Below are positions 2,665 through 62,166 of a DNA stretch of 64,000 bases, piece after piece. Each line of letters opens with the position of its first letter. Within the stretch, counting starts at the first letter, position 1. Source of the stretch: Pseudomonas migulae (lineage in GTDB: Bacteria; Pseudomonadota; Gammaproteobacteria; Pseudomonadales; Pseudomonadaceae); assembly GCF_024169315.1 (NCBI RefSeq), contig NZ_JALJWR010000001.1, positions 6,126,501 to 6,190,500 of the forward strand, written 5' to 3'. A program made the translations under genes and the position numbers. The notes under the pieces are model-generated. The model did not search any database. It saw only the letters and a list, made by a program, of their open reading frames with translations, and had not been told where the DNA came from.

Positions 2665-2740
<76 letters not shown>

Positions 2741-2819
2741 ATTTACACTTCAAGGTCTGGCCACACCGGCCTTGAAGCGATCAACACTCAGCGTTGATCT
2801 GTTGTATAGAAGGGTTTGC

Positions 2820-2895
2820 GTCCCCTTCGTCTAGTGGCCTAGGACACCGCCCTTTCACGGCGGTAACAGGGGTTCGAGTCCCCTAGGGGACGCCA
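2820..2895 (+). tRNA. tRNA-Glu (TTC)
   Basis: 76 bases with encoded CCA. Acceptor arm GTCCCCT pairs with AGGGGAC, and the anticodon stem CCGCC/GGCGG encloses CTTTCAC, giving anticodon TTC. It lies downstream of gltX, whose product charges it. Confidence 0.97.
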
Positions 2896-2948
2896 GTTTT
2901 ACAGAAGCGATGTTGCAAGATGTCGCTCCGCCGCGAGGCGAAAAATCC

Positions 2949-3024
2949 GGGGCTATAGCTCAGCTGGGAGAGCGCCTGCATGGCATGCAGGAGGTCAGCG
3001 GTTCGATCCCGCTTAGCTCCACCA
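2949..3024 (+). tRNA. tRNA-Ala (GGC), second copy
   Basis: Same structure and anticodon GGC as the copy at 2665. The anticodon stem here is CCTGC/GCAGG instead of CTTGC/GCAAG, a paired change that keeps the stem intact. Confidence 0.97.
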
Positions 3025-3104
3025 ATTTTACAATTCAAGGTCTGGCCACACCGGCCTTGAATCGATCAGCTCTCAGCACTGATCAGTTGTATAGAAGGTT
3101 TTGC

Positions 3105-3180
3105 GTCCCCTTCGTCTAGTGGCCTAGGACACCGCCCTTTCACGGCGGTAACAGGGGTTCGAGTCCCCTAGGGGACGCCA
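3105..3180 (+). tRNA. tRNA-Glu (TTC), second copy
   Basis: 76 bases with CCA, matching the copy at 2820. It is the last tRNA of the cluster; a terminator hairpin follows 26 bases later. Confidence 0.97.
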
Positions 3181-48791: not shown

Positions 48792-48868
48792 AGGCACGTA
48801 GCTCAGTTGGTTAGAGCACCACCTTGACATGGTGGGGGTCGTTGGTTCGAGTCCAATCGCGCCTACCA
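48792..48868 (+). tRNA. tRNA-Val (GAC), integration target of the island
   Basis: 77 bases with CCA. Anticodon stem CCACC/GGTGG with loop TTGACAT gives GAC. The acceptor arm AGGCACG pairs with CGCGCCT except at position 5:68, which is A (48796) opposite C (48860). The 3' part from base 48824 on is repeated at 61904, showing where the element entered. The tRNA stays complete at this left end. Confidence 0.93.
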
Positions 48869-48931
48869 AACAAAATCCGCTCTGCTGGGCGGTCTAGAAG
48901 GGCCCACCGAAAGGTGGGCCCTTTTTTGTTG
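48824..48931. repeat. attL-type direct repeat of the genomic island
   Basis: 108 bases from the tRNA anticodon loop through CCA and the whole downstream terminator. They recur at 61904-62011 with a single difference (C at 48904, T at 61984). The preceding base and the base after the repeat differ between the copies. Confidence 0.93.
48898..48928 (+). terminator. terminator of tRNA-Val(GAC)
   Basis: AAGGGCCCACC-GAAA-GGTGGGCCCTT with a T-run. It lies inside the direct repeat; the copy at 61978-62008 has one T for C, leaving a G-T wobble. Confidence 0.93.
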
Positions 48932-48970
48932 TCTTGGATTTCTTCAGAACGTTCACAAAATATCGGGTTC

Positions 48971-48992
48971 GTTCACACTGGGCAATGTGAAC
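48971..48992. promoter_or_regulatory. inverted repeat at the left end of the island
   Basis: GTTCACA-CTGGGCAA-TGTGAAC is a perfect 7-base dyad with no T-run. An extra GTTCACA lies at 48953. The same half-site (TTCACA/TGTGAA) forms the dyad before the XRE gene at 57747, so both may bind one protein. It precedes the DUF4145 gene by about 170 bases. The rest of 48932-49158 shows no gene. Confidence 0.5.
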
Positions 48993-49158
48993 GCCGAAGG
49001 CGTCCTTCTATTGGTGCGATTCTTCCGCTGTATCTGGACTGAATTTGAATGGCTTCAGCTTGACTCCGTCGATAAGCTCGGCCTGTTTGTGTCGCTCGCG
49101 AAAGCAGGTGGCGCTAGCGACTTTCGTTTCTACTGATCGATGCGAGGATAAGATCGGC

Positions 49159-49827
49159 ATGCCAAGACTCAAGGTTGAAGGAAGCTTATACGATGTTGAT
49201 CAGCATCCCGATGAATGTCCGTGCTGTCATCATGCGATGGAGCCGGGAGCGCTGGAGTCAATTTTTTCTGATAATGGCAGGGTTATTGATGCGGCCTTTG
49301 TGTGTCCTCGGCATAAATGTTCGAGAATGTTCATTGCCATATTTGAACGGGCTCTGATGCAGGGTGGGAGCTATTCTGATCGGTTTTATTTGCGTTCGAC
49401 ATTTCCCAGAAATCCATTGGCGCCAACTATTGCTCCCGAAGTGGCAAAAATATCTCCTCAGTTTGTAGAAATATTCACGCAGGCGAGCAAGGCTGAGGCG
49501 TTTGGGTTAGGGGAGGTTGCAGGGGTTGGGTATCGAAAGGCGCTTGAGTTCCTTGTCAAAGATTACTGCGTCACTACATCTCCAGACAAAGAAGACGATG
49601 TAAAAAAGCGGCCGCTGGGGCAGGTCATCGAAACGTATGTAGATAATGAAAATATCAAGCAGTGTGCAAAAAGAGCTGTCTGGCTCGGGAATGACGAGAC
49701 GCACTACGTTAGAGCGTGGGTTGATAAGGACATTAAGGATTTGAAGCTACTGATCAAGCTGACTGTCGGCTGGATTGAGCAAGCCATCATCACGGCGATA
49801 CTGATAGAAGATATGCAAAAGCATTGA
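49159..49827 (+). CDS. DUF4145-domain protein
   Basis: A 222-residue protein. The N-terminal part has possible metal-binding cysteines (CPCC, then FVCPRHKC). The C-terminal half matches DUF4145 as I know it: a helix-rich segment with FTQASKAEAFGLGEVAGVGY and RKALEFLVKDYC. ATG 49159 follows GAGGATAAGATCGGC; the frame is open upstream to 49045 but that part looks non-coding. DUF4145 proteins are common in mobile elements and defence islands, alone or fused to restriction enzymes. Their function is unknown, so no role is claimed here. Confidence 0.75.
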   Translation: MPRLKVEGSLYDVDQHPDECPCCHHAMEPGALESIFSDNGRVIDAAFVCPRHKCSRMFIAIFERALMQGGSYSDRFYLRSTFPRNPLAPTIAPEVAKISPQFVEIFTQASKAEAFGLGEVAGVGYRKALEFLVKDYCVTTSPDKEDDVKKRPLGQVIETYVDNENIKQCAKRAVWLGNDETHYVRAWVDKDIKDLKLLIKLTVGWIEQAIITAILIEDMQKH

Positions 49828-49861
49828 GGCGGTATGATGAGCTTGTTGAGGGGCGTAGTAC

Positions 49862-50155
49862 TCAGGAGCAGGAATATGAAACGGTGTGGCCTTCAATTCC
49901 CTTCTCTGCATCTTCCATAAGGAAGTGGACGATGCTGTCCCTCCCGGCTGAATCGCATTCCCGTAGGTTTTTGAATACGCGATCTAGCCGAGTATCCGCA
50001 CAGCCATAGCCTTCAGTGCAATGACGAATCGTGATGAGCGTGGCGCGTGTGTCTTCGCTCACGAGTGGTTTCATTCCTGCGTTCTGCAAAAGGTCGTCAG
50101 CATTCGCTGTGGTGCAAGCTAGTATCAGGGCGATCCCTGCGATCAGTTTTTTCAT
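49862..50155 (-). CDS. small secreted protein, function unknown
   Basis: A 97-residue product with a clear Sec signal peptide (MKKLIAGIALILACTTANA, cleavage near residue 19). The mature part has four Cys, including TIRHCTEGYGCADTRL and the C-terminal SYSCS, which suggests disulfide bonds in the periplasm. The start at ATG 50155 is well supported by AAGGAG seven bases upstream; a longer open frame to 50209 has no such site. It is read against its neighbours. Two other secreted small proteins occur in the island (57806 and the broken one at 58653). I do not recognise the family. Confidence 0.75.
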   Translation of the reverse strand: MKKLIAGIALILACTTANADDLLQNAGMKPLVSEDTRATLITIRHCTEGYGCADTRLDRVFKNLRECDSAGRDSIVHFLMEDAEKGIEGHTVSYSCS

Positions 50156-50263
50156 AAAATTACTCCTTGTGTGTAACATCGGGCCACCCCACTCCAAGCG
50201 AATCCTCATGAAAGTATTGTTGCTAGTGTGGTGGACTGGCGTCTGGATTTTGTGGAGGGAAGC

Positions 50264-50932
50264 ATGGCTACAGATGATGATGGGAGTCTTCCAAAGACAT
50301 CGTGGGTCTTGTCTATGTCTGATGGAGTGGTGGCTCTAACGCAGCAAGATGGGAGAAACGTTCGTGTCAGCGTAGATGAAGGTAGGGGGAGGGCTTCCAG
50401 CGGGGACTTGTGTCCCGGCGGTGGCGTCACTCTAGGAATGCTCGGAAAGCCTCCTAGAGGTGAGGAGGGCACTAAAGAAACCAGCGGGCGGCTATTTCAA
50501 CACTTGAATGCTTCGGGTGCACGCTTCACCGACCTTGAGCACGTGGAGCACATCAAGCACGTTGACGCATTCGTATGCTCACCAGATGGGGCTAAAGTGA
50601 GCATTCAGGTTGTGAGGGCGCTCACTGACTCAACGTTTTGGGAAGAGCTAGCCAGAAGTAAGAGTGAAGAGATTGAGCGAGTCGTACCGATGGCTGAAGC
50701 AGTCGAGATGCTGAAGAAGTCGATTTCGCACAAGCAGAAGCCAGAGCTGGACGGCTTCATTTTGGCACTCGACGCTACCGACGTTCCCGGTCTTTCTCTT
50801 GATGCGGTGCACGAAGCTTTTAACGCCCAATATGGTGGCTGGGTCGACTCACTTGGCTTCTATCAAGTGTGGGTAGTTGGGCCGTGGCCTGAAATGATTC
50901 ATCAGCTAGGTTTGAGTAACCTCGATTGCTAA
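50264..50932 (+). CDS. hypothetical cargo protein
   Basis: A 222-residue protein I do not recognise. The N-terminal third is Gly/Asp-rich; the rest looks globular, with a conserved-looking strand pattern ARFTDLEHVEHIKHVDAFVC and GFILALDATDVPGLSLD. The middle part (GAKVSIQVVRALTDSTFWEEL) resembles the strand-and-helix layout of restriction-endonuclease-like domains, but I see no full PD-(D/E)XK set and make no such call. ATG 50264 follows GGAGGGAAGC; GTG codons at 50228 and 50231 are other possible starts. No signal peptide or membrane segment. Confidence 0.6.
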   Translation: MATDDDGSLPKTSWVLSMSDGVVALTQQDGRNVRVSVDEGRGRASSGDLCPGGGVTLGMLGKPPRGEEGTKETSGRLFQHLNASGARFTDLEHVEHIKHVDAFVCSPDGAKVSIQVVRALTDSTFWEELARSKSEEIERVVPMAEAVEMLKKSISHKQKPELDGFILALDATDVPGLSLDAVHEAFNAQYGGWVDSLGFYQVWVVGPWPEMIHQLGLSNLDC

Positions 50933-51414
50933 GAGAGATGCACCAAAAATCCAGCCCCGGCGAAAATAGGGATAGCACTTCAAATGTGATTTCCCAAAAT
51001 CCCGCCAAAAATAATGGCCCCGAATTTGAAGGATGCCCCCTCCATTCTGAAAACGGTCGTCGTGTCTCAGGTGCTAAGCACGGCACGAGTAGGCCAAACG
51101 GCAACTCGACAAATATGAAAATAAGTTGGGAAGCTTCGAGATTCTGTTGGTCTTGTAACTATATGATAAATGCGGGCATGAGGCAGGTTGCAGCCTCGGC
51201 AGTGAAATTGCGCACCAACTATCTTTACTAATTGATTTTAAAAGTATTTTCCAGTAAAAAATCTCGAAGTGTGACAGCGTTTTTGTACACCTAAGTGGTG
51301 CGCCGTGCTGTAGCAGCCACATTCAAAGCTTGATATTGCTCTGTTTTTTACAGTCCACCTTCCAATTGATGGTGTGCGAAAATATTGCTTATTTACCGTA
51401 TGTGGGTCGATTTC
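50933..51414. other. gene-poor stretch before the DUF4238 gene
   Basis: About 480 bases, AT-rich from 51120 on. A 305-base open frame at 50926-51231 on the plus strand has no ribosome site and an odd composition, and I do not call it. The stretch holds the first copy of the 56-base leader repeat (51256-51311), described separately. Confidence 0.5.
51256..51311 (+). repeat. leader repeat, copy 1 (before the DUF4238 gene)
   Basis: AAAAATCTCGAAGTGTGACA followed by about 36 less conserved bases that keep a CACC...GGTG dyad and GTGCTG. The same block is found at 52542-52597. The copies stand 104 and 76 bases before the next start codon. Confidence 0.7.
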
Positions 51415-52278
51415 ATGTCAAAACAGCAAGTCTCTACAAAACACCATTTCATTCCTAAATTTCTTCTGAGAGAGTGGCAGGACGAAAGTGGATGCCTATG
51501 GATTTATCATAGAAATGGTGGGGGTGATATTTCTCTACGGAAAGGTGCTCCCAAGTCGGTTGCGTACGTAGAAAATCTGTACACCTTGTACCCGGAATAT
51601 CGCGGAGCTAAACAGTCATCCGATAAAATCGAAAAAGAAGTCATGGCGAAGATTGATGATCAAGCTGCTATTGTTCACAGAAAGCTGCTGGATTGTGGGG
51701 TTAACGCATTGACGGTAAAAGAACGAACTATTTGGTCAATATTTATAGCTTCCATGATAGAGCGAAGCCCTCAAAGGCTTGAAAGATATAAAAATATATC
51801 TCAAGTAGATGACTATATCGACGACCTTCATGAAGCGCATCCAAATGTAGCCGGTCTTATTGAGACTCTCGGGTTCAATGTCCAAGCAGTAAGAGATAAC
51901 ACAATCCTGAAGTTTATGGTGGAGAGGGTACTCGACTCAGAGCTTTCTCAGTCAATAGGTAAGATGGAATGGATTATTGCTCAGACTAATACGTCAGGCG
52001 AACATTTTGTTTTGGGTGATAGTGCATTAATAATTAACAATGATGCAGCTGAAGATGAGCCGCTATATTTTATTAGACTTGCTATTTCTGCTGATAAGCT
52101 ATTGATTTTGGCATATGATTCGTCCAGTCTGAGTTTCGACTTTATCGCAACATTAACGATAACCTATAATATTGCGGTTATTTCAAAGTCCGAAAAGTAT
52201 GTCATCTCTAGTAGGGCGTTGAAAGACGAAGCCTGCACTAAGTTCAATAAGATTCTTGAAAAAATGCATCGAGTGTAA
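51415..52278 (+). CDS. DUF4238-domain protein
   Basis: A 287-residue protein. The N-terminal KHHFIPKFLLREWQDESG is the opening motif of DUF4238, and later EHFVLGDSALIINND matches the family block that usually reads FITSDNPV. The middle is helical (MIERSPQRLERYKN). No signal or membrane segment is seen. ATG 51415 is the start that begins just before the motif; a longer frame to 51385 is possible. Codon use is far more AT-rich than in the chromosome, a sign of recent gain. DUF4238 proteins turn up in defence-gene neighbourhoods, but their activity is unknown to me. Confidence 0.8.
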   Translation: MSKQQVSTKHHFIPKFLLREWQDESGCLWIYHRNGGGDISLRKGAPKSVAYVENLYTLYPEYRGAKQSSDKIEKEVMAKIDDQAAIVHRKLLDCGVNALTVKERTIWSIFIASMIERSPQRLERYKNISQVDDYIDDLHEAHPNVAGLIETLGFNVQAVRDNTILKFMVERVLDSELSQSIGKMEWIIAQTNTSGEHFVLGDSALIINNDAAEDEPLYFIRLAISADKLLILAYDSSSLSFDFIATLTITYNIAVISKSEKYVISSRALKDEACTKFNKILEKMHRV

Positions 52279-52417
52279 TTCGACACACGCCTTGGCCCCA
52301 ATATCGCCCGTGAGCTGTGGCGGAAATTCCACTGATGTATCTGGCGAATCGTTCAAAATACCGCATAGGCAGGGTCGGGGTTAAGGGATATTTCCGTTCC
52401 GGCTCGCTATCATTGGT

Positions 52418-52437
52418 CACGATATCAAAATATCGTG
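52418..52437. promoter_or_regulatory. perfect hairpin/dyad CACGATAT-CAAA-ATATCGTG
   Basis: An 8-base perfect inverted repeat with a 4-base loop. It has no T-run, so a terminator is unlikely; an operator or a recombinase site is possible. No repeat of it was found elsewhere in the window. Confidence 0.5.
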
Positions 52438-52541
52438 GAATGAAAAAACCGCCCGCGAGCGGCTATCGTCACGCTGTGACAGCTTCTACTATGTGTGTCG
52501 GGTTATCTCTAAGTCCTTGACTCTACAAGGATTTATAAGTC

Positions 52542-52597
52542 AAAAATCTCGAAGTGTGACAGTGTTTAGGTTCACTAGGCGGTGCACTGTGCTGGCA
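52542..52597 (+). repeat. leader repeat, copy 2 (before the PIN-like gene)
   Basis: AAAAATCTCGAAGTGTGACA is identical to copy 1, then similarity falls while CAC...GGTG and GTGCTG are kept. It ends about 75 bases before the next start codon. Confidence 0.7.
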
Positions 52598-52672
52598 ATC
52601 CTACCTCGTTCATGCTGTTCAAGCCATCGCAGAAATGCTATTGCTTGATAGTTAGCTTATGAAGGAAAGCTT

Positions 52673-53914
52673 ATGGGCCCAATTACTCTTTTTGATAAAT
52701 CATTCTTACAGTCCTTGAGTGTGGACGAGTCGGTCTGGTTTGATAATTTTTTTAAAGTGAATATTTCACCTTTATTTTATATCGAGACTTTGGCTGATTT
52801 AGCTAAGGAAGTGAGTAGGGGGCGAACAGCGGAGCAAATTGTCTGCGAAATTGCTTCTAAAACCCCAGAGATGGGTGGTACTCCAAATGTTCATAGCAGG
52901 GACTTGCTGATAAGCAATTTGCTCGGCCAAAAAATTATTATGGATGGACGGCCAGTTTTGGCGGGAGGTAAGCCTGTTGTGTCGGGTGGAAAAAAGGGCC
53001 TTGCCTTTGATATATCCCCAGAGGCCAAAGCATATAGTAGATGGCAAAATCGAGAGTATTTAGAAATTGAGCGTGAGTTTGCTAGTCAGTGGCGGGCTCA
53101 AGTCAAGGCGATGACATTTGAAAGCTCTTTAGGGTATGCGGAAAAATTGGGTATAGATTTTCTGCGATGCAAGAATATGGATGATGCGTTTTTGGCCGCT
53201 ACGGCTGTGGTCGAGTCCACTAGCAAACCATATGATTTAATAGGTTTTGTTCTATCTTCGCTGGCTATTCCTCTAGAGTTACATCGGACGGTTGTTCAAC
53301 GATATCAGGTTAGCGGATTTCCCCCTATAGCTAGATATGCACCGTATGTGGCACATGTCATCAAGGTAGAGGTATTTTTTCATATTTGTGTTTTAAGAGG
53401 TTTTATCTCTTCTGAGCGACCCTCTAATAAAATAGATATTGCATACTTGCATTATTTGCCGTTTTGTAAGTTGTTTGTTTCTGGGGATAAGCTGCATAAG
53501 AAAACTGCTCCTCTATTTATGAGTAAAGGGCAGTTGTTTGTTTGGGGGGCGGAGCTTAAGGCTGATTTATGTGGATTGAATAATTACTATATGGATTTAC
53601 CTCAGGAAACAAAGGATAAAGGTCTAGCATCTTTTGCTGCCAAACCTCCATTAGATGGCGATTTTTTAACCTCGAAATTGTGGGATTTGATGGGGGCGCA
53701 ATGGCGTAAGCCTCGAGAGATGGAAATGCCTTTGTCTAAACATGCTAGTGATAATATGGTTGGGTATATTAATAGCTTTAAAGAGGTGGTCCTTTCTGAT
53801 TCTGACTTTTCTGAATTCGATATAGACAGTTTGGATTCTGTATCCTTGCAGCATTCGGTAAGTAAACGGAAAGGAAGTTGGTTTCAGTTACCTAAAGATT
53901 TAAAGAGTAGCTAG
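52673..53914 (+). CDS. PIN-like domain protein, cargo of unknown role
   Basis: A 413-residue protein with very AT-rich codon use. A possible PIN-like nuclease pattern can be read: LFDKSFLQSLS with Asp 8 at the N-terminus, YIETLADL with Glu 38, and KIDIAYLHYLPFCKLFVSGD with Asp 255, His 260 and Asp 272, where PIN domains carry their acidic cluster. The insert between residues 45 and 240 is long, and the C-terminal tail (after about 330) is Ser/Asp-rich. No signal or membrane segment. ATG 52673 follows GGAAAGCTT. A nuclease effector is a reasonable guess, not shown. Confidence 0.6.
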   Translation: MGPITLFDKSFLQSLSVDESVWFDNFFKVNISPLFYIETLADLAKEVSRGRTAEQIVCEIASKTPEMGGTPNVHSRDLLISNLLGQKIIMDGRPVLAGGKPVVSGGKKGLAFDISPEAKAYSRWQNREYLEIEREFASQWRAQVKAMTFESSLGYAEKLGIDFLRCKNMDDAFLAATAVVESTSKPYDLIGFVLSSLAIPLELHRTVVQRYQVSGFPPIARYAPYVAHVIKVEVFFHICVLRGFISSERPSNKIDIAYLHYLPFCKLFVSGDKLHKKTAPLFMSKGQLFVWGAELKADLCGLNNYYMDLPQETKDKGLASFAAKPPLDGDFLTSKLWDLMGAQWRKPREMEMPLSKHASDNMVGYINSFKEVVLSDSDFSEFDIDSLDSVSLQHSVSKRKGSWFQLPKDLKSS

Positions 53915-54166
53915 CCTTAAAGACGGTTTTTTTGGTGTTCTGCCTCGGAGGTGTATTAGGGCTATCCAATCGGGGGGGGCTCCAGTACCAATCGCTTAAT
54001 ACGTACCCATACCCCCACTCGCTACCCTGTTAAGCCACTACCGTGTCCATCAGACTAATGAAAAATCCGTGCTGTCCAGACAGGTGCAGGCGTTTGCACT
54101 ACTCTACGTAGCAATCGCACTCTAGATATTGTATAAATACCGTTTGTCACAGGAGTATTGTCGAAA

Positions 54167-54559
54167 ATGGAACAGTTAACATTCGCAACACAGTGGATTG
54201 GTTTACACTTAAATGAACTTGGGTTGATTGTTGCTGTTTTGGCTTTTTTGCTCTCTATTGTAGTGCTGGCATTCTCTGCTTACAGATATGTCACTGTAAG
54301 AAAGGATGAGTTGAACAATGAGCGGTATGGCAAATACCATAAGCTCATCAGAGATATCAGCACAGGAAGTGATGGTGCTGGATTGTTAAAGCTTGCCAGT
54401 CAGCGAGCTTATATATACGAACTCCGTCATTTTCCAGAGTACAAGGTTCTCACAAAAAGATTACTTGCATCGTTAATGGATGAGTGGGGTGGAGAGGAAG
54501 ATAGGAAGAACGCCATCCTAAAAGATGAAATTAAAGAAACTGTTAGCGCATTACGCTGA
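54167..54559 (+). CDS. small single-pass membrane protein, unknown
   Basis: A 130-residue protein with one strong membrane helix (about residues 15-38, GLIVAVLAFLLSIVVLAFSA) and a basic, helical cytoplasmic part. AGGAG lies 11 bases before the ATG at 54167; a TTG at 54158 is too close to it to be likely. The C-terminal half (YGKYHKLIRDISTG, then YELRHFPEYKVLTKRLL) resembles the short tails of other membrane proteins found in defence islands, but I do not recognise a family. The 250 bases before it (53915-54166) hold no gene. Confidence 0.6.
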   Translation: MEQLTFATQWIGLHLNELGLIVAVLAFLLSIVVLAFSAYRYVTVRKDELNNERYGKYHKLIRDISTGSDGAGLLKLASQRAYIYELRHFPEYKVLTKRLLASLMDEWGGEEDRKNAILKDEIKETVSALR

Positions 54560-54761
54560 GAGTCCAGTCCCGCACCAAAAAATAATGTACTTGATATATT
54601 TGGTTCCTTGGCTGGCAAAGTAATTGTGGTGTTTTTTTCTGGCCTGCTAAACCAAGTGCGAGGAGGTCAAATCATAGCCGCCAAAATCTAGAAATAAGTT
54701 CCAGCTTACCCTGTATCCGCTGACCGGACCAACAGACACAGGGCGACTGTCCGCAACGCCG

Positions 54762-55388
54762 TCACGCCGCCTTTGTTTCTTTCTTGATCCTGTACACTGT
54801 GGCAACACCGCAGTCAGCCAACTTAGCGATCATCTCAGCAGACATGGTTGGATGGTCTTGCATCAGCGCCCGCACTTTCGCCCACTTATTAATGTTCCGT
54901 CCTTTGCCTGCTGGTTTCCAATCAGGGTCAGCAGTCTTCTTGTTTTCCAGTCCTTGCTTGATGCGTTCTACCCGTTTCTCTTGATCCAGTCGTGCCATTG
55001 TGGCCATCAAGTCGATCAGCATGTTGTTGATCACATCCATGATCTGGCCTGTGATCCCCTTCGCCTCTACCAGCATATGACTAGTAGGCAGATCAGCTAC
55101 AACCAACCTTAGCCCCTTGGCCTTGATGGTGGCCTTGAGTGTGTCCCAGTCAGCCTGTGAGAGACGACTGAGGCGGTCTACGGACTCAACCAATAGCACG
55201 TCTCCTCTCTCGGCTTTGCCAAGCAAGGCGAGCAGCTCAGGGCGGTTGAGCTTAGTCCCACTGATGTTTTCTGCGTACACGCCAACGATGCTCAATCCTC
55301 TCTCGGTAGCGAACGATTCAAGGGCAACTCTTGCACGATGGGCGTCTTGATCTTTGGTCGATGCACGTAGGTACAAGTTGGCATTCAT
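54762..55388 (-). CDS. serine recombinase (resolvase/invertase family)
   Basis: A 208-residue small serine recombinase. The catalytic Ser is residue 10 in LYLRASTKDQDAHRA, followed by NRPELLALLGKAERGDVLLV and ESVDRLSRLSQADWD. The C-terminal helix-turn-helix has PTMSAEMIAKLADCGVATVY. The length fits a resolvase rather than a large phage integrase. The ATG at 55388 stands next to a stretch with three dyads, a likely res site. It may resolve multimers or invert DNA within the island. Confidence 0.92.
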   Translation of the reverse strand: MNANLYLRASTKDQDAHRARVALESFATERGLSIVGVYAENISGTKLNRPELLALLGKAERGDVLLVESVDRLSRLSQADWDTLKATIKAKGLRLVVADLPTSHMLVEAKGITGQIMDVINNMLIDLMATMARLDQEKRVERIKQGLENKKTADPDWKPAGKGRNINKWAKVRALMQDHPTMSAEMIAKLADCGVATVYRIKKETKAA

Positions 55389-55392
55389 GGCT

Positions 55393-55457
55393 GGCTATCC
55401 TTTGTCATTAATTTTGATAGCCAAATGATAATCGAATCATATAGCTATTAACAATAG
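55393..55457. promoter_or_regulatory. res-like recombination site and operator of the resolvase
   Basis: Three inverted repeats follow each other: GGCTATC (55393-55399) with GATAGCC (55416-55422), ATGAT-AATCGA-ATCAT (55425-55440) and CTATT-AAC-AATAG (55445-55457). Resolvase genes commonly have a res site with three dyads at this position. A run of TAGTTGTTTCTCGAC and another GATAG follow to 55520. Confidence 0.6.
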
Positions 55458-55521
55458 ACGATTGATAGTTGTTTCTCGACCTCTATCGCACTACCGGATA
55501 GGTCTACTGCTTTGATAGTGG

Positions 55522-55737
55522 TTATTGCCGGAGCTTGAGAATTCCAATGGTGATAGCAGACGCGTTCGCATCGAGAGTCTGCAATGCAGTGACGGCGTTC
55601 TCGTGGGTTTCGCTTGAGCCACTGGCTTTAGCCCATAGGGCCACTTCTTCGATTGCAGAAGCCAAAGCGTGCTGGTTGTGCAGCAGGAGTGTTAGAACGT
55701 CTGCTATAGCTATATGGACATCTGTGTTTTCTGCCAT
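55522..55737 (-). CDS. small hypothetical protein
   Basis: A 71-residue, largely helical protein (AIADVLTLLLHNQHALASAI and then THENAVTALQTLDANASA). AAGGATG lies about 9 bases before ATG 55737, which supports it as a real gene. Separated from the resolvase by the res-like region and read the same way. I do not recognise it; size and helix content would also fit an antitoxin or a regulator, but nothing shows this. Confidence 0.55.
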   Translation of the reverse strand: MAENTDVHIAIADVLTLLLHNQHALASAIEEVALWAKASGSSETHENAVTALQTLDANASAITIGILKLRQ

Positions 55738-55897
55738 GGGTGGTCATCCTTGAGGGGTGGCAAGGATAGTAGTTCAACTTGAAGCTGGCTGAGGCTGTAG
55801 TGCGGACATGTCAACAGGAGCCTAAGCACTGGGAGGTTGGTGGCATTGCCGAATGGCCAGTACACTCAGGCATGACCAGTTCGAAGCAAGGTGAGTG

Positions 55898-56830
55898 ATG
55901 GGAAACGTTTTTGAGAAGCCTTTTGATACTGCACGTCAGTTGCTTGACTACGTTTCACCTCTTAATGAAGTTTGGAAAAACGGCAAATACGTCTTCAGGG
56001 GCCAGCCAAGCGACGAATACAAGCTAACCCCTTCTGTATGCCGTAATGGCGAGGGGTCATTTGGGTACGGCTCCCCTCGAAGAATGTTCGACAAATCAAG
56101 TTCAGGCCAAGTCCGCTTTGAACTAGACATTCTGAAGAAATTCTTAGATGGCTGTGACCGGTCTGGATTAATTGTGCCCGGATATACAGAACAGATTAGA
56201 GACAGGTTGCTAACTGCTCAACACTCGTTCATGAGTGGACACAGACCATGGCCTCAGCAAGAAATGCACCAAATCATGGCGATAGCTCAGCACTATGAAG
56301 TGCCAACCCGCCTTCTAGACTGGACTGATCGAAGCTTTGTTGCATGTTACTTCGCCGCAGCATCAGCGAGCTTTGAGATTGACTTTATGGGGATGCCAAA
56401 GATTGCTGTGTGGGCGCTGGAAACAACTTCTGCTCCTTTCTGGAAAACGGTGAAGATCATTCGACCACCGGGAGGCACAAGCCAGAATCAAGCGGCTCAG
56501 TCTGGTTTGTTCACTGCTCACCACGCGAAGGATTACAGTGTAGACGATACATACACGACTGATGCACTTGAGGACGTTCAAGAGATATACGACATAACGA
56601 GTGGCTATGCTCCGCTTATCAAAATGACGCTACCATTAAGTGAAGCACCGGACTTGTTGGAGTTGTGTTCAAAGATGGGCATTGATGGCTCAACCCTCTT
56701 CCCCGGATTCCACGGTGTAGCAAAGATGGTTAAAGACTGGGGTAATGTCGAGATTGGAGTCAGGCATACACAGTCAGCAATAGACGAATACAACGCTGAT
56801 AACTTCGACCATGATCCAGACTTCCATTGA
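55898..56830 (+). CDS. FRG-domain protein
   Basis: A 310-residue protein. The FRG domain is recognised from its name-giving motif YVFRGQPSDEYKLTPS (about residues 31-46) and from QHYEVPTRLLDWTDRSFVA (about 130-148), whose Gln-His-Tyr and Leu-Leu-Asp-Trp are conserved. FRG domains are found widely in bacteria near mobile genes and have been seen in defence systems; the biochemical activity is unsettled. ATG 55898 follows AAGGTGAG; a GTG three bases earlier is an alternative. A small gene follows on the same strand after 117 bases. Confidence 0.85.
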   Translation: MGNVFEKPFDTARQLLDYVSPLNEVWKNGKYVFRGQPSDEYKLTPSVCRNGEGSFGYGSPRRMFDKSSSGQVRFELDILKKFLDGCDRSGLIVPGYTEQIRDRLLTAQHSFMSGHRPWPQQEMHQIMAIAQHYEVPTRLLDWTDRSFVACYFAAASASFEIDFMGMPKIAVWALETTSAPFWKTVKIIRPPGGTSQNQAAQSGLFTAHHAKDYSVDDTYTTDALEDVQEIYDITSGYAPLIKMTLPLSEAPDLLELCSKMGIDGSTLFPGFHGVAKMVKDWGNVEIGVRHTQSAIDEYNADNFDHDPDFH

Positions 56831-56947
56831 TAGCAAAAAAAACACGATAATGGCGGATAGCCATTGAAAAGCCAGCATCCTGCCCCCATACCTTGATCAC
56901 ACCGCACTTCGCGGTTAGTCAGGCTACAATGAGAAAGGATGCATCGT

Positions 56948-57274
56948 ATGATCAAGGTAATGCTGTCGCTGGACCTCACAAATGCAAAGGATAACCGACC
57001 TGAGTTCTATAGCGCCTTGGAAGACGCTGGTTGGAAAAAGGCACAAAATGTTGATACCGTCTGGTTGCAAGATTTCAGTAAGTATACAAGTCTCGATGAG
57101 CAGACTCTAACCAATATTAGGAATGATATTGCTAGGCCGCTCCTAGATGCTTATAAAAACCTAAAGCTGGATAAAATTTACTACGTCGCCCAAATAGGTA
57201 ACGGCGCAGTCATTAGCCGCGTAGTTGAAAAACGTAATGGCGAGCTGAAGGCTTACGTTGAAAACCTGTTTTGA
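56948..57274 (+). CDS. small protein with possible Cas2/GhoS-like ferredoxin fold
   Basis: A 108-residue protein. AAAGGA lies 8 bases before the ATG at 56948. The order of elements reads strand (MIKVMLSLDL), helix (RPEFYSALEDAGW), strand with TVWLQDF, a second helix (TLTNIRNDIARPLLDAY) and strand (KIYYVAQIG), as in Cas2-like and GhoS-type ferredoxin folds. An Asp at the end of the first strand fits Cas2, but the match is by eye only. It follows the FRG gene on the same strand, so the two may act as a pair. The 189 bases after it (57275-57463) show no gene. Confidence 0.5.
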   Translation: MIKVMLSLDLTNAKDNRPEFYSALEDAGWKKAQNVDTVWLQDFSKYTSLDEQTLTNIRNDIARPLLDAYKNLKLDKIYYVAQIGNGAVISRVVEKRNGELKAYVENLF

Positions 57275-57463
57275 TTAGCTAATCCTATAAGAATCCGGTG
57301 ACTAAACACCACCGGATTTTAAGCAGTAGGTAAACCAGATACACCACTTCCCGGAGTAACACCAGTGTGTTTGTGGGTATCAAATGGAATCCCGTTGAAT
57401 GCCCATGTTTCGCTGATTTTGGTGTTGCCCGTTAGTAACCTAGCCATCATAGGAAATCCCCGC

Positions 57464-57691
57464 CTATCTCCCCAACTCCTTCTCCACCAAGAGAATCAGC
57501 GTGGATGGGCTGCACTTCAACGCACCGGCTAACTTGAATAGGATTGCAATCGTAGGCTGATTGACGCCCCTTTCGATCAGACTGACGTAGTTGCGTTGCA
57601 CATCTGCTTCCAGTGCTAACTGTTCTTGGGTCAGGCTCGCTTCCTGTCTTTTCTGTCGCAGTACACGCCCAAAGGCTACCCCGATCTCCAA
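57464..57691 (-). CDS. XRE-family helix-turn-helix regulator
   Basis: A 75-residue lambda-repressor-like DNA-binding protein. The five-helix domain covers nearly the whole length, with LTQEQLALEADVQRNYVSLI for the two HTH helices and ERGVNQPTIAILFKLAGAL after. The start is TTG 57691, supported by GGAGGG about 6 bases upstream; no ATG fits. A perfect dyad (TTCACA-N6-TGTGAA) lies 56 bases upstream, between it and the divergent secreted-protein gene. It resembles controller proteins of restriction or phage-like systems. The role is inferred. Confidence 0.88.
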   Translation of the reverse strand: MEIGVAFGRVLRQKRQEASLTQEQLALEADVQRNYVSLIERGVNQPTIAILFKLAGALKCSPSTLILLVEKELGR

Positions 57692-57746
57692 TGCAATCCC
57701 TCCACGCTAGTGAGCGGGCACTGTCATGGTTGAGCATCGGCGGGTC

Positions 57747-57764
57747 TTCACAATATACTGTGAA
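57747..57764. promoter_or_regulatory. candidate operator of the XRE regulator
   Basis: TTCACA-ATATAC-TGTGAA, a perfect 18-base dyad in the divergent region between the XRE gene and the gene at 57806. The half-site recurs at 48971-48992 and 48953. Confidence 0.6.
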
Positions 57765-57805
57765 TATCACGTCCAAATAAATGAAGCCCACCAAAGGAAC
57801 GCTTG

Positions 57806-58126
57806 ATGAACACCGTTACTCGTTTGCTCTGCCTGCTGCCCCTGATCGCGTCTGCTGCCGCTATGGCTGACACCTACCCAAAGCGAACGCTCGTTGCTGG
57901 TTCGATGGTTTGCTACAAGGCTGGTGACTGGACAAAGATGGTGGAGGCGTCCCTTGATCAGGACGAAGATGAGGCTGAACGCTTGATCGACTCGGGAAAG
58001 TGCCGAACGATCTCAACAGCTACCAAGGTCAATTTCATCGAAGGTCCTAAGGACGGCGACAAGTCAGCATTGATCCAGCTTCCCAGCGGGAAAACCGCCA
58101 TGACAGCGAATGGTTGGCTGCGTTGA
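57806..58126 (+). CDS. small secreted protein, unknown
   Basis: A 106-residue product. A signal peptide (about 1-21, ending in SAAAMADT) is followed by a short mature domain with two Cys (VCYKAGDW and SGKCRT) that may form a disulfide. AAAGGAACGC stands 8 bases before ATG 57806. It is divergent from the XRE gene and next to a dyad that may control both. The gene after it codes for a small membrane protein. I do not recognise the family. Confidence 0.75.
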   Translation: MNTVTRLLCLLPLIASAAAMADTYPKRTLVAGSMVCYKAGDWTKMVEASLDQDEDEAERLIDSGKCRTISTATKVNFIEGPKDGDKSALIQLPSGKTAMTANGWLR

Positions 58127-58187
58127 TTCATTATCCAATGAGCCATTGGGCACACCACACCAGCCTCAGACCGAGTAAGGGCAGGAC

Positions 58188-58496
58188 ATGAACGAAAAAC
58201 TGTTTGTACTCACCACCCAGAAGAAGAAAACGAATCACATCCTGCACGTGATTATGACGGTGCTCACTGGAGGACTCTGGCTGTTGGTGTGGGGAATCAC
58301 CATGCGGAGCAATGACGCTCACAACAATAAAATCGACAAACAGATCAATCAGATCATGCTCTATAAGACGCAAGGCTTGAGTGATACCGGCACTTACCAA
58401 CAAATCAAGAATGACCAATTGAACTGTGATGTGCTTCAAGGGCGAGTGATCTTTGTGATTCTGGTAGTGGTGTTTCTGTACTTCTACTTGCGATAA
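58188..58496 (+). CDS. small two-helix membrane protein
   Basis: A 102-residue protein with two membrane segments (about residues 18-38, HVIMTVLTGGLWLLVWGI, and 82-100, GRVIFVILVVVFLYFYL). The N-terminus MNEKLFVLTTQKKKTNHIL resembles short hypothetical proteins seen in many gamma-proteobacterial islands. GGGCAGGAC lies before the ATG. It is 61 bases after the secreted-protein gene and probably in the same transcript. No function can be given. Confidence 0.72.
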   Translation: MNEKLFVLTTQKKKTNHILHVIMTVLTGGLWLLVWGITMRSNDAHNNKIDKQINQIMLYKTQGLSDTGTYQQIKNDQLNCDVLQGRVIFVILVVVFLYFYLR

Positions 58497-58652
58497 CTGC
58501 TGCACACGTAAAGCGGAGCTTTGAGCATGAGACCCTGCCAGCTTCGCTGAAGTGTGTTTGAGCCAAAGTGTTCGCATCGAAAGCGTGAGCTTCAACTGTA
58601 CTCAGCTACGGCGTGACAGCCGACTTTCCTTCGGATGTACTCTAATAATTAA

Positions 58653-58860
58653 ATGAGATTTACACAAAATCAGCTCTTCGCTTTTGATCTTGCTCTTCTT
58701 TGTTGGTGCAAAAATGAATGCGGAAGTATTCAGTGCTCCTTCGTTAGCGGATGCTGACAGTTATACACATCACCTTCGGTGGAAGCAGATCAAGAGCTTG
58801 GATGTTGATACTATATTAATCTACTGGAGTGCTGATCCAGAATCGGGACGATACGACTGA
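58653..58860 (+). pseudogene. frameshifted remnant of a small secreted protein
   Basis: From ATG 58653 the frame reads MRFTQNQLF and soon stops. Removing one T at 58659-58661 would join it to the frame that ends at 58860, giving MRLHKISSSLLILLFFVGA, a textbook signal peptide, then NAEVFSAPSLADADSY to the end. As it stands the second frame has only an internal ATG at 58714. A single-base change thus separates a plausible 68-residue secreted protein from a broken one. No strong ribosome site is seen. The rest of 58497-58964 is empty. Confidence 0.35.
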
Positions 58861-58964
58861 TGTTATTAAAACTGCACACCTTTCCTAGTAAGGCTCTTAG
58901 GATCAATGTGCATTTTTTACCTTGCAAACTAAAGCTAGGGTTGCGATGTGCAACTGGTTTTAAC

Positions 58965-60449
58965 TTAAGCTGCTTGACCCGCTCGCCAGTCCTCTCTCCA
59001 GCTTGGTAGTGTGTTTCGATGTACACCAGTCAGGCGAGCAATTTCAGCATTCTTCTTGCCTTGTGCAAACAACTCGCAGACTTGAACTCTACGTACGTCC
59101 ACAGTCGTTCTACGGTCTTCACCCACTGGACATATTTCAGACAAGCTCCAATCGATCACGGCATGTGGCATATAGGTGGCGATAAGATAATCAGCCACTC
59201 GCCCATCTTGCACAAACAGTTGTATTGGCTTGGTGTTACGTCTGTCTCGTACTGCTGTCCGAGTCGCTGCCTGTAAGCTGGGCTCCAAAAATCTGGTGAC
59301 GATGAATCCTTGGCGAAACTCTCGACCATACTTTGTTGCCAGAAACTCCAGTGCGAGCTGATCGGATGGCGATGGGTTTCCACCAAACAGAAGAATTGCA
59401 TCAGTTTCGCCCTGATACTCGTTCAAGCCTCGACTGTCGATTGAGCAGCGATGCACAGTTCCCCTTGGCAACCATCTCAAACCCGCCCAATTGTTGCTGA
59501 ATAGCAGAGGAGTTCCAGTAGTTCGCTGGAGAGCTGCCTTCAAAATGTCGTCAATCACCAGAAGCTCTCCCTGCTTCGGCTGATCCGTAGCACCGCCACC
59601 ATGGGCAATCATAGTCACTGCGGATTTGCTGTAGTTGCGCCCCTTTGGCATGACAGGGTAGATCGTGACAGCAGAGGTGTAGCCTTCAAACGCTGGAGTG
59701 AAATCCGACCTAGCGTATGTGACACCATGCACCTGAGCAAAATCATCGAACTGACTGCCAATTACACTGGCCGCAAGAACGTGCACCTCTTCTGCCGCAG
59801 CGAAGGTGTCCCAGCAACTGGACTCAACAACTGCTCGAACATATCTGTTGCCATTGGGAATCTCCGAATCAATAAAGACCGGGTGCCCATCCTTCAAGCA
59901 CTCGTAGATGCGAGCCCCTTCCTTGCTCAGCATCGACGTGCGTTCAGCTCCCGCTGATACCGCCTTGAAAGTCGCCAATGATGTTTCAATCGCACCAGCA
60001 CAACCTTCCCGGATGTATAAACGCCCATCATGCTCCATTGCATTCACGAACAGTTGAGCAAGCTCTGACGGCTCGAATGGGAAAGCTGGAAAATCAACCA
60101 CAGGAGGTAGTTCGTCGACGACTAGCGTCCAGCTCCTGAGCAAATTGGGTCGTACGGCGAAAATGCTCTGATGTGTCGTGATTATCAGATGGCTTTCTTT
60201 CTTTTTCAAAGCAGCCATCAGCTCCGTGCCAACGTGATCACAGGTGGTGGAGTTGATGACACGGTAAGGCACGCCAGCTGGCAAGCGGCGAACAAAGCTA
60301 TCAGAGAGATCAAGGGTAGGGAGTGCAAGAACGATGGAGTGTCGCGCAGAAAGCAGAGACGGAATCTGGGTAATGAATGCTTGAGTCTTGCCCGCTCCGG
60401 GAGCGGATACGGCGGTGTTGATTACTTTATTGGGGGCGATACTAGTCAT
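58965..60449 (-). CDS. DEAD/DEAH-like helicase or ATPase of mobile-element type
   Basis: A 494-residue protein. Walker A is SAPGAGKTQAF (about residues 15-25), a motif Ia-like THQSIFAVR follows at about 92-100, and Walker B with DEL is VVDELPP (110-116), as in superfamily 2 helicases. The second RecA-like half is less clear (RQGFIVTRFLEPSLQAATRT). The C-terminal 40 residues form a helix-turn-helix of the resolvase/transposase type (FAQGKKNAEIARLTGVHRNT). ATG 60449 has GAGAAACC upstream. Such proteins occur in plasmids and islands, perhaps for replication. It is downstream of the integrase on the same strand. Confidence 0.75.
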   Translation of the reverse strand: MTSIAPNKVINTAVSAPGAGKTQAFITQIPSLLSARHSIVLALPTLDLSDSFVRRLPAGVPYRVINSTTCDHVGTELMAALKKKESHLIITTHQSIFAVRPNLLRSWTLVVDELPPVVDFPAFPFEPSELAQLFVNAMEHDGRLYIREGCAGAIETSLATFKAVSAGAERTSMLSKEGARIYECLKDGHPVFIDSEIPNGNRYVRAVVESSCWDTFAAAEEVHVLAASVIGSQFDDFAQVHGVTYARSDFTPAFEGYTSAVTIYPVMPKGRNYSKSAVTMIAHGGGATDQPKQGELLVIDDILKAALQRTTGTPLLFSNNWAGLRWLPRGTVHRCSIDSRGLNEYQGETDAILLFGGNPSPSDQLALEFLATKYGREFRQGFIVTRFLEPSLQAATRTAVRDRRNTKPIQLFVQDGRVADYLIATYMPHAVIDWSLSEICPVGEDRRTTVDVRRVQVCELFAQGKKNAEIARLTGVHRNTLPSWREDWRAGQAA

Positions 60450-60869
60450 CTAGGTTTCTCCTGTTCAGTTTATGTCATAGGCAATTCCCTCGGGGTTGTG
60501 CCGGTTTGATTTGGTAAATCACAGGCGTTAAAAAGCCCCCTTGCAAGGCACCGATTCGGTGGTCGCGGTGGAGGCTTCTAAGTTGTCTGTCTACCTACTT
60601 GGTAGACGATGTATTATGCATATTTTCGACTGGCGGTCAAGGGCAGTCTTGACAGGGGCGATTTCATCAGAAACCGTTTTTCGTGGTGAAGAACGCCTTT
60701 TGCTTAGCTCAGACACCCATGTAAGCCCGTAAACACGGGGCGGGACGGAAGTGCTCGTTCGGAAACCGGCGAATCTAGTGCAGGTTTTGACGCGGTTCTC
60801 GGAGGTATTGAGTAAGTTTCTGGAACCGCCAACCCTACGTTCGCCAAGGTTGGCAGTCCGTCCGTTGCA
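60450..60869. other. non-coding region between integrase and helicase
   Basis: About 420 bases without a gene I can support; short open frames at 60541-60732 (plus) and 60704-60901 (minus) lack ribosome sites. It contains several dyads: CACCG-AAT-CGGTG on the minus strand near 60550-60562, CCTTGCAAGG near 60539-60548 and the 60589 palindrome. This could hold the helicase promoter, an excision-factor site or an origin. Confidence 0.5.
60589..60607. promoter_or_regulatory. perfect palindrome between integrase and helicase genes
   Basis: GTCTACC-TACTT-GGTAGAC, 7-base arms and a 5-base centre, 140 bases before the helicase start. It has the form of an operator or iteron-like site; no second copy was seen. 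Confidence 0.55.
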
Positions 60870-61826
60870 TCAGTCGATGAGGTGCAGTACGTCCCTGACA
60901 TTGAGGTGGGAATATCGTGCGACGGATCGAGTATCTCTATGTCCTGAGACGATCATGATCTGGGAATTGTTGAATCCCTTCTTTGCGACGTTGGTGATTC
61001 TGGTGTGCCTGAGTTGGTGCAGTCTGACGCTACTGTCCAAACCTGCCTTTACACGTGCCAGACGCACAGCCTGAGATACGGCGTGTGGAGTGACGGTGAA
61101 TAGCACTCCATTTGGGTAGCGTTCCACAGTGGCCCACAGTTGGGCGAATTCAAGAATTTCGACGGCTCGGTGGGTAAGGGGAACTGATCGTGTACCGTTC
61201 TTCCCGTCGATCACATCGGCAATACGATCTTTGAGGTGCAGGCAGTCCTTGGTCAGCTTCAGGATTTCAGACCGTCTCATCGCAGTCTCATATGCCAACT
61301 CAATGATGGGTTTCATGGTGGGAGATAACTTTGCCAGCAGTCGCTCAAGCTCGGTTGCACTGATCACCTTGTCAGAAGACCGGTCTGGCTTCGGTAGTGC
61401 GATATCAGCTACAGGGTTGTGAATGTCGATCAGCAAGCCGCGTTTTGCGAATCGGTAGAACCGCGACATGAAGGCGAGTTGAATTCTGCATGTGGCTGGC
61501 TTCACCTTCTTCAATCTCATGATCTTGAAGTCGTTGATCATCTGAGGCGTGATTTCGTGAATAGGCTGAGTGAAGTGTCTACCCAGATGCTCCACGATCT
61601 TCAGTGCGTGGTCGTAGCTGCCTTTCCCCTTGAGCATCGTTTCGCAATACGTCATGCCCAACGTATAAATGGTGTGGTGCTTGCAATCCATCGTCACGGC
61701 TTCTAGCTGGTTCGCCCATGACTCTGCTTCAGCTTTGGTGTTGAAGGTTTTCGACTGGGGAGGTTTGCCCTTTATCCGTACCTGAGCATTCCAGTTGCCG
61801 GACGGAAGTAAGCGGAAATTGGCCAT
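60870..61826 (-). CDS. tyrosine-type site-specific integrase
   Basis: A 318-residue phage-type integrase. All catalytic residues are visible: Arg 184 in TAMRRSEIL, His 270 and Arg 273 in LHQLRHTRIT, His 296 in VSGHRDTRS and the nucleophile Tyr 305 in ARYSHLN. The N-terminal arm-binding part (GNWNAQVRIKGKPPQSKTF) and a SAM-like core-binding domain (about 55-145) precede. The gene starts 78 bases inside the right direct repeat and points inward, the standard place for an enzyme that inserts its element at the tRNA. Confidence 0.96.
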   Translation of the reverse strand: MANFRLLPSGNWNAQVRIKGKPPQSKTFNTKAEAESWANQLEAVTMDCKHHTIYTLGMTYCETMLKGKGSYDHALKIVEHLGRHFTQPIHEITPQMINDFKIMRLKKVKPATCRIQLAFMSRFYRFAKRGLLIDIHNPVADIALPKPDRSSDKVISATELERLLAKLSPTMKPIIELAYETAMRRSEILKLTKDCLHLKDRIADVIDGKNGTRSVPLTHRAVEILEFAQLWATVERYPNGVLFTVTPHAVSQAVRLARVKAGLDSSVRLHQLRHTRITNVAKKGFNNSQIMIVSGHRDTRSVARYSHLNVRDVLHLID

Positions 61827-61903
61827 TGTTGACGCCTCATAATGTGAATGGGCGTTCTGTGAAACCCTTGAGCACCAAGGCTTGAAGCTTGCTCAAGCAG
61901 ACA

Positions 61904-62011
61904 TTGACATGGTGGGGGTCGTTGGTTCGAGTCCAATCGCGCCTACCAAACAAAATCCGCTCTGCTGGGCGGTCTAGAAGGGCTCACCGAAAGGTGGGCC
62001 CTTTTTTGTTG
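61904..62011. repeat. attR-type direct repeat of the genomic island
   Basis: Copy of the last 45 bases of tRNA-Val(GAC) plus its terminator, matching 48824-48931 with one mismatch (61984). The upstream tRNA half is missing, so it is not a functional tRNA. Bases to the right continue the chromosome. Confidence 0.93.
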
Positions 62012-62166
62012 CCTGCGTTTATACATCGTTTGCAAAGGCTCCCCGTCATTCCAGTCAGGTACCGCCCTCCGTACCAGATGCAAAGCTGAGGTGATGGCAA
62101 TTTGGCATTGCTCAAGTTTACGGGTATTGTAGCGCCCGAGATCACCCCCACGGCATGGACGCGGTA

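Follow-up and report, generated by a model that had tools for sequence, protein, structure and literature searches.

Tycheposons of marine bacteria are modular integrative elements that sit at tRNA genes and carry swappable cargo. The 13.1-kb island analyzed here, which is located at the tRNA-Val(GAC) gene of Pseudomonas migulae, resembles them in this general design. It lies in a stretch of 64,000 nucleotides, hereafter called the window, within one contig of the 6.54-Mb genome (G000:C1:6126501-6190500). Throughout, L numbers denote fetched loci or islands, and G numbers denote the genomes compared.

The Pseudomonas IntY/AlpA islands at tmRNA (I23, I44, and I55) resemble this island in having a tyrosine integrase and defence cargo, in being flanked by direct repeats at the gene of a small RNA, and in lacking transfer genes, and they are also described as variable in content and widespread in Pseudomonas (PMC12595487). 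They differ in their tmRNA target, in AlpA, in the frequent YqaJ and inovirus Gp2-like genes, and in a size range of < 20 to > 70 kb, whereas the window island occupies a tRNA-Val site, has no recognized AlpA, YqaJ, or Gp2-like gene, and combines a superfamily 2 (SF2) helicase-like ATPase with a resolvase and a res-like site. The phage-inducible chromosomal minimalist islands (PICMI) of Vibrionaceae share a minimal form of about 6 kb, an integrase with a replication gene, defence cargo, and direct repeats, but they need int, alpA, and a primase and integrate at fis (PMC10803314). The elements described here have a helicase-like ATPase, integrate at tRNA-Val or at ffs (the gene of 4.5S RNA), and lack a demonstrated helper. 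The genomic island hotspots of Pseudomonas aeruginosa, PAPI, PAGI, and LESGI, are likewise modular defence carriers, DUF4238 and CBASS included (PMC12629846). The hotspots described there, for example those beside Tra genes, differ from the window island in chassis and site, and the main text of that paper contains none of the terms “resolvase,” “serine recombinase,” and “ffs.” The single-gene DUF4238 anti-phage system has the same Pfam domain as one window protein, a likeness at the domain level only, and the tested Escherichia coli gene is reported to come from a hotspot of P2-like phages (PMC9122126). We found no description of this island family in the open-licence literature, which is not proof that it is undescribed. 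The island belongs to the known class of defence-carrying integrative islands, its interest lying in the switch of target and in the chassis that it shares with others.

We consider it probable that the island is an integrative element of mosaic origin, which inserts at the 3' end of tRNA-Val(GAC) by its own integrase and would pass through a cycle of excision, replication, and transfer. Anatomy and comparison support an insertion at tRNA-Val by the element's own tyrosine integrase that restores the tRNA. The locus combines the features of a site-specific integrative island, namely, repeats of the tRNA 3' end, an intact tRNA, an integrase at one end, and an empty site in relatives. The target gene, tRNA-Val(GAC) (48792-48868, + strand), is intact and has one such copy in the whole genome; a second copy of its 3' part only is found at the right attachment site. 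The direct repeat pair, with 114 nt and 97% identity, is formed by attL (48821-48934, +), consisting of the tRNA-Val 3' part and the terminator, and attR (61901-62014, +). Its 108-bp core (48824-48931 and 61904-62011) spans the 3' 45 nt of tRNA-Val and the downstream terminator, with a single mismatch at 48904. The GC content is 0.477 in the island, 0.609 in the left flank, and 0.553 in the right flank, and the tRNA-Val-type tyrosine integrase (60870-61826, −; Pfam Phage_integrase, 1e-21) lies next to the right repeat. A previous sequence-only reading of this DNA had proposed the tRNA-Val(GAC) site with 108-bp repeats differing at one position, the intact tyrosine integrase beside the right repeat, and the AT-rich cargo, all of which hold.

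The tRNA-Val loci of 20 relatives, which we picked from 57 relatives found, all contain the left flank and the tRNA (20/20), and no relative of the island integrase was detected in these 20 stretches. Seven of them (L056-L061 and L069) are empty sites, where the left flank and the tRNA are followed by a single att copy and, 0.5-1.7 kb on, by the right-flank region. The loci L062, L063, L064, L070, and L072-L075 contain tRNA-Val(GAC) with other insertions or a second tRNA-Val/att copy, without this integrase; L062 seemingly holds a spanin-like lysis gene, as read from its sequence. Empty sites at tRNA-Val(GAC) and islands sharing the integrase but carrying different cargo had both been predicted, and both were found, the latter among 31 same-integrase sequences. 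Because of these two findings, there is strong support for the 13-kb segment being a mobile-type genomic island in tRNA-Val(GAC).

The integrase is present in 13 of 249 genus genomes (its own included), in 16 loci of named genomes, and in 2 viral contigs, and it is 90-94% identical in several other genomes carrying other cargo. The 31 sequences are the window island itself, 12 found by the search of the genus, 16 of named genomes, and 2 viral ones, in which L053/L106 and L045/L099 are identical islands and L094/L109 are alike, but not identical. An att copy lies beside the integrase start in 30/31, and both att copies are found in 21/31, delimiting islands of 3.4-13.2 kb; the left att is absent from the other 10 sequences (contig ends or fetched length), where genes may go unseen. 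Clustering was based on the longest open reading frames (ORFs) of at least 75 amino acids (aa), and small genes are therefore missed; two of these ORFs overlap the annotated XRE and 102-aa genes of the window. By this clustering, the window has only the integrase, the resolvase, the ATPase, and two small ORFs in common with the other 30 sequences; matches by tblastn and at the DNA level extend this list by the 71-aa and 102-aa genes. Several sister islands (L053 = L106, L055, L094, L105, L107, L109, and L110) show a shortened integrase match. In the 3.7-kb island L053/L106, a deletion has apparently fused integrase residues 1-210 in frame to the C-terminal portion of the resolvase.

Six compact elements of 6.4-6.6 kb (L047-L052), each at tRNA-Val(GAC) in a different Pseudomonas genome, have integrases 78-79% identical to that of the window. 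Their near-constant core is composed of the integrase, two small proteins, the ATPase, and a 113-162-aa protein, with few variable genes. A small winged helix-turn-helix (wHTH) protein is found in 5/6, that of L048 resembling replication initiators (phrog_270, 1.9e-6), and in L051 a different PHROG_2467 protein takes the ATPase place. These elements are candidate minimal satellites. Their 118-aa protein was considered as a terminase small subunit and rejected, as it has no such match.

The two 59-nt repeats that flank the DUF4238 gene connect the island to a second integration site. They belong to two copies of an ffs-type island end sequence, recognized by sequence match, with copy 1 at 51212-51310 (+), probably a relic, and copy 2 at 52504-52613 (+), which includes a terminator-like hairpin. 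The repeats occur in 29 of 249 genomes, at 31 places, and are absent from plasmids. We fetched 27 contexts of the end sequence, leaving out the window and the tRNA-Val island L046. In 25 of these, Rfam places the signal recognition particle RNA gene (ffs) beside it; the 26th has the ffs 3' end only, at a contig end, and one shows neither. The neighborhood of ffs indicates that the sequence marks the distal end of islands integrated at ffs. No ffs accompanies the second copy in G222 or that in the window; the two copies in G222 (L160, G222:C40) lie about 4 kb apart, like those around DUF4238, with one of them beside ffs. The host's own ffs (5,996,347; Rfam) lacks the end sequence, which is present in the host genome only as the two island copies, and further copies are found in the tRNA-Val islands L046, L095, and L107. 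An interpretation of the 59-nt repeats as attC-like cassettes or as an RNA was rejected, as they have no strong fold (z −0.77 and +0.73) and no Rfam family, and are ffs-island ends. In L122 (G190:C27), a C4 antisense RNA (471-567; Rfam RF01695) lies about 0.8 kb from the ffs gene bearing the island-end sequence.

The resolvase accompanies the end sequence in 14 of the 27 contexts, in L046, and in the window, and in all 16 it is found on the same side and on the strand opposite to the end sequence. The window resolvase is 84-85% identical to the resolvases of the ffs-type islands L156, L162, and L167. The tRNA-Val and ffs-type integrases are distinct, their best alignment spanning only 52 aa at 37% identity, and fragments of the ffs-type integrase, 76-83% identical, are found in the sister tRNA-Val islands L045 (= L099), L100, and L104. 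In the window, the segment 60423-60714 (−) is 80% identical to the DNA just downstream of the L156 integrase, and the match to L156 gives way to tRNA-Val islands at 60.67-60.73 kb, which puts the mosaic junction at about 60.7 kb. These comparisons support a mosaic origin, in which the ATPase, the resolvase, part of the cargo, and the distal ends of an ffs-type element appear to have been joined to a tRNA-Val-type integrase. The simplest reading is that the ffs-type element was joined to this integrase and then lost its own. The island thus offers a readable case of a mobile element changing its integration site, with fossils of the old site remaining inside it. The mosaic relation, the res-like site, and the replication-initiator-like character of the ATPase are points missing from the sequence-only reading.

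The Pfam scan covered 17 ORFs, 15 in the island and 2 in the right flank, with small or overlapping ORFs only partly included. Above the cut-offs, it returned Phage_integrase, Resolvase, DUF4238, FRG, and HTH_3 in the island, and below them DUF4145 and DEAD. Relaxase, type IV secretion, and capsid families are absent from these 17 ORFs (oriT, the origin of transfer, was not searched for), in agreement with the earlier statement that conjugation and virion genes are lacking. The only name related to packaging is that of Terminase_5, matched below threshold (E 0.036) by the C-terminal HTH of the ATPase.

The SF2 helicase-like ATPase with its C-terminal HTH (58965-60449, −) matches PHROG_2467 (3.1e-42), with DEAD below the Pfam cut-off. 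It is present in 15/249 genus genomes, and its named relatives are from Pseudomonas and Ectopseudomonas; outside its own genome, it has 0 matches at E 1e-20 or better in a 293-genome sample of the order, which held few Pseudomonas. Walker A residues G18-G20-K21, Walker B residues D112-E113, and Q393-R397-R401 are invariant in the family, and among 59 members, DEAD is found in 48, a C-terminal HTH_23 in 36, and Herpes_ori_bp in 4. The best match of the family profile to PDB sequences, a weak one (3.2e-5, residues 8-119), is to replication origin-binding proteins of the herpesvirus UL9 type; weaker matches include those to reverse gyrase, NS3, and PriA. We regard the ATPase as a candidate replication initiator.

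Eight ATPase loci have other integrases (L111-L118). The integrase lies within 1.6 kb of the ATPase in 7/8, a serine resolvase is found on the far side in 7/8, and five of the loci are located at ffs; in L118, the integrase and the ATPase are broken. The window fits this arrangement, its integrase adjoining the PHROG_2467 ATPase and its resolvase lying on the cargo side. One of the loci, L116 (G214:C5), is a 13,390-bp contig with the ATPase, AriA/AriB-like genes, and identical 61-bp ends. Its interpretation as a circular plasmid was not upheld, as the end resembles the 3' terminus of a protein-coding gene; L116 could equally well be an integrated copy severed at its att repeats, which would suggest a further integration site.

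The resolvase is a small serine recombinase (54762-55388, −; Pfam Resolvase, 8.7e-25) that scores 88 bits against a cut-off of 23.3 for the Resolvase domain and 23.6 bits for HTH_7, just below its cut-off of 23.8. Both this gene and the helicase-like ATPase had been named in the sequence-only reading and are borne out by the profile searches. The region upstream of the resolvase (55389-55521, −) looks like a res site, since a CTATC/GATAG-type repeat pattern is found in 9/10 aligned copies, and we treat it as a candidate. In the 133 bp of the window, CTATCA/TGATAG occurs in 3 copies against 0.15 expected, a number reached in 0/1000 shuffles, and TATC/GATA occurs 7 times against 2.8 expected (3/1000 shuffles), the motif having been chosen after viewing the alignment. 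Such a site is of use to DNA that forms multimers, and it would point to a replicating circle.

The DUF4238 protein (51385-52278, +; likely ATG at 51415), lying between both end-sequence copies, scores 85.6 bits against a cut-off of 27 (Pfam, 5.1e-24) and is likely an anti-virus gene product. A single DUF4238 protein provides strong resistance to T7 in E. coli, as described in PMC9122126. The FRG-domain protein (55895-56830, +; likely ATG at 55898; Pfam, 1e-18) scores 68.4 bits against a cut-off of 25 and matches the PADLOC profile PDC-S15 (8.1e-33), with nothing else convincing among the 10 of 15 listed island ORFs scanned with PADLOC. FRG is discussed as an NADase candidate of the ART (ADP-ribosyltransferase) superfamily in PMC9503650, and the FRG protein here is a candidate defence gene product.

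The 413-aa protein (52673-53914, +) has no match in Pfam, PADLOC, PHROGs, or NCBIfam, and belongs to a large unnamed family with 1888 members in the database at E <= 0.001, the named ones coming from Cellvibrio, Marinobacter, and others; none of the 120 relatives listed out of the 1888 has a Pfam domain. A 50-sequence alignment has 59 invariant columns, and the invariant acidic residues include D8, E38, D42, D255, and D272, some of which would be compatible with a PIN-like nuclease. The 50-sequence profile found nothing among PDB sequences, and the Pfam scan of the 50 members returned no PIN family. The uncharacterized 234-aa protein (50228-50932, +; 222 aa in the database record), which has no Pfam match, finds 34 proteins in the database at E <= 0.001, with its own record among them. 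At the left end of the island, the DUF4145-like protein (49045-49827, +; likely ATG at 49159) matches PHROG_1305, “DNA binding protein” (8.1e-36), and reaches only 15.3 bits for DUF4145, below the cut-off of 23.1. Of the family labels in the sequence-only reading, DUF4238 and FRG are confirmed, whereas DUF4145 and PIN-like remain unconfirmed. Its proposal that the island carries defence or toxin modules not yet described holds only in part: DUF4238 has been published (PMC9122126) and FRG is a listed candidate, whereas the 413-aa and 222/234-aa proteins are without a family name, and a defence role for them would be a guess.

Six of 10 cargo proteins from tRNA-Val islands match PADLOC or Pfam, namely, RT-protease, NACHT, DUF4238, an AAA/PDC-M28C protein, RES, and HNH/type IV. 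The DUF4238 protein of L103 is divergent and falls outside the cluster of the window protein. From 7/8 of the ATPase loci with other integrases, 10 cargo proteins were scanned, and 9 match PADLOC, with Dsr1, CBASS cyclase, TmtA (in part), RT-protease, AriA, AriB, PDC-M60A (in part), a methyltransferase (MTase), and PDC-M36A. As both sets of 10 were picked as large ORFs and the far end of some islands (e.g., L118) is not fixed, these proportions do not describe the cargo as a whole. The RT-proteases of the tRNA-Val island L097 and the ffs island L115 are 67% identical. Through these loci, one “unknown” island is tied to a chassis found repeatedly in Pseudomonas together with different integrases and with defence systems already known (Dsr1, CBASS cyclase, AriA/AriB, and RT-protease), and the chassis genes and the ffs-end sequence should therefore be usable as bait for new defence genes.

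The proposed cycle starts from an ffs-type chassis with an integrase, an SF2 helicase-like ATPase, a serine resolvase, and defence cargo. The integrase would excise the element as a circle, the ATPase would open the circle's origin and drive replication, and the resolvase, acting at res, would turn multimers into monomers. The DNA would reach the next cell with the aid of a helper, most probably a transducing phage, and would there be inserted at tRNA-Val by the integrase, and the host may retain the island for DUF4238, FRG, and other cargo. Several findings weigh against this cycle or the chassis behind it. Excision, the circle, replication, and transfer are steps that we infer, and the origin-binding match of the ATPase covers only a region that is common to many SF2 helicases. 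In the 31 tRNA-Val sequences, the ATPase cluster and the resolvase cluster are each found in 10/31 and both together only in the window (an 11th sequence, L051, has the other PHROG_2467 protein), and the compact 6.4-6.6-kb clade is without a resolvase. No resolvase is seen in 13/27 ffs-end contexts, some of which end at contig ends, and 4/10 tRNA-Val cargo proteins match neither PADLOC nor Pfam. A megablast search with the island DNA gave no match in 50,697 phage or 72,556 plasmid records, and the ATPase has no relative in plasmids and no close one in IMG/VR, so that no packaged or plasmid form is known.

A phage satellite proper, of the phage-inducible chromosomal island (PICI) or PICMI-like kind, is a possibility that we take seriously without preferring it; here, the island, and above all its compact sisters, would be induced, replicated, and packaged by a helper phage. 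The size class is the same, an integrase is combined with a replication-like gene and defence cargo, no capsid genes were seen, and distant ATPase homologues occur in 166 phage records, all at < 60% identity, which is only a hint as to transfer. In the one record examined (L232, Aeromonas phage 65.2, Straboviridae), the PHROG_2467 homologue is annotated as hypothetical, adjoins the late sigma factor, and is near gp46/gp47. The nearest precedent for the transfer of such islands in Pseudomonas is the transduction by jumbo phages of tmRNA-site islands without transfer genes, as reported in PMC12595487. However, AlpA and a primase (DUF3987/DUF5906) are not among the Pfam matches of the 15 island ORFs, no terminase small subunit or capsid-remodelling gene was recognized among the ORFs scanned, no phage record contains the island, and the two viral-contig integrase matches are not shown to be packaged DNA. 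A broader version of the phage-borne idea, to which we give little credence, would see a self-replicating class of integrative elements in Pseudomonas and close kin. In such elements, an origin-binding helicase would make concatemers, a helper phage would package them, and the element's own resolvase would cut them to monomers in the new cell, with defence cargo and resolvase moving as a block between ffs and tRNA-Val elements. If true, one defence cargo pool would serve several RNA-gene integration sites. Many integrative islands move by conjugative mobilization with a helper, and an element with an oriT only, helped by a co-resident plasmid or an integrative and conjugative element (ICE), would agree with the lack of own transfer genes; we judge it improbable, as the Pfam scan gave no relaxase and no plasmid record shares island DNA. 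The earlier description of the island as mobilizable, in the sense of conjugation, is accordingly unsupported, as the scanned ORFs include no relaxase (a search for oriT was not made).

The island could also be a fossil, an old integration that is now immobile and whose cargo the host has retained. Relic ffs-end sequences and lost modules tell a history of decay and fusion, and the shortened integrase matches in the sister islands fit this idea, but in the window the integrase, the ATPase, and the resolvase are all open reading frames, the ATPase keeps its invariant residues, attL and attR differ at 1/108 positions, and close relatives of the integrase carry other cargo, which makes immobility rather unlikely. 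SF2 helicases are common in defence systems, and it is in a similar measure doubtful that the ATPase is a defence or accessory helicase of an island that never self-replicates. Besides that general frequency, the weak PDB match and the 20/31 same-integrase sequences that show no ATPase of this kind speak for such a role. Against it, the ATPase adjoins unrelated integrases with unrelated cargo, it lies near the initiator-like wHTH in the compact clade, and in resolvase-bearing islands the main cargo lies beyond the resolvase. It is also improbable that the two ffs-end copies are working cassette boundaries for cargo gain and loss. In the window, a cargo gene comes within about 0.1 kb after each copy, the pair brackets DUF4238, and G222 has a comparable pair. 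However, the copies include the terminator found after ffs in ffs-type islands, which is what earlier insertions would be expected to leave behind, the 21-base core of the end sequence has just two copies in the whole window at <= 3 mismatches, and the matching DNA is mostly 60-130 bp long (288 bp with L095). The integrative element of mosaic origin, with probable relic ends of its former type, remains the reading that we prefer.

The other island genes encode small proteins. A 115-aa protein without a Pfam family (49862-50209, −) and a 133-aa protein with a likely N-terminal membrane segment, as read from the sequence (54158-54559, +), lie to the left of the resolvase. Between the candidate res site and the FRG gene is the gene of a 71-aa protein (55522-55737, −), whose DNA is common to the islands L095, L102, L104, and L112, and downstream of FRG follows an ORF for a 111-aa protein (56939-57274, +). 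The region 57463-58858 is 83% identical to L098. It contains an XRE-type HTH regulator (57464-57691, −; Pfam HTH_3), a likely secreted 107-aa protein (57803-58126, +), which is 93% identical in L046 by tblastn, and a likely membrane protein of 102 aa (58188-58496, +), part of which is 67% identical in L046 and whose DNA is common to L095 and L102. Rfam found no family at gathering score on the island except tRNA. Elsewhere in the window, two tandem tRNA-Ala(GGC)/tRNA-Glu(TTC) pairs are located at 2665-3180.

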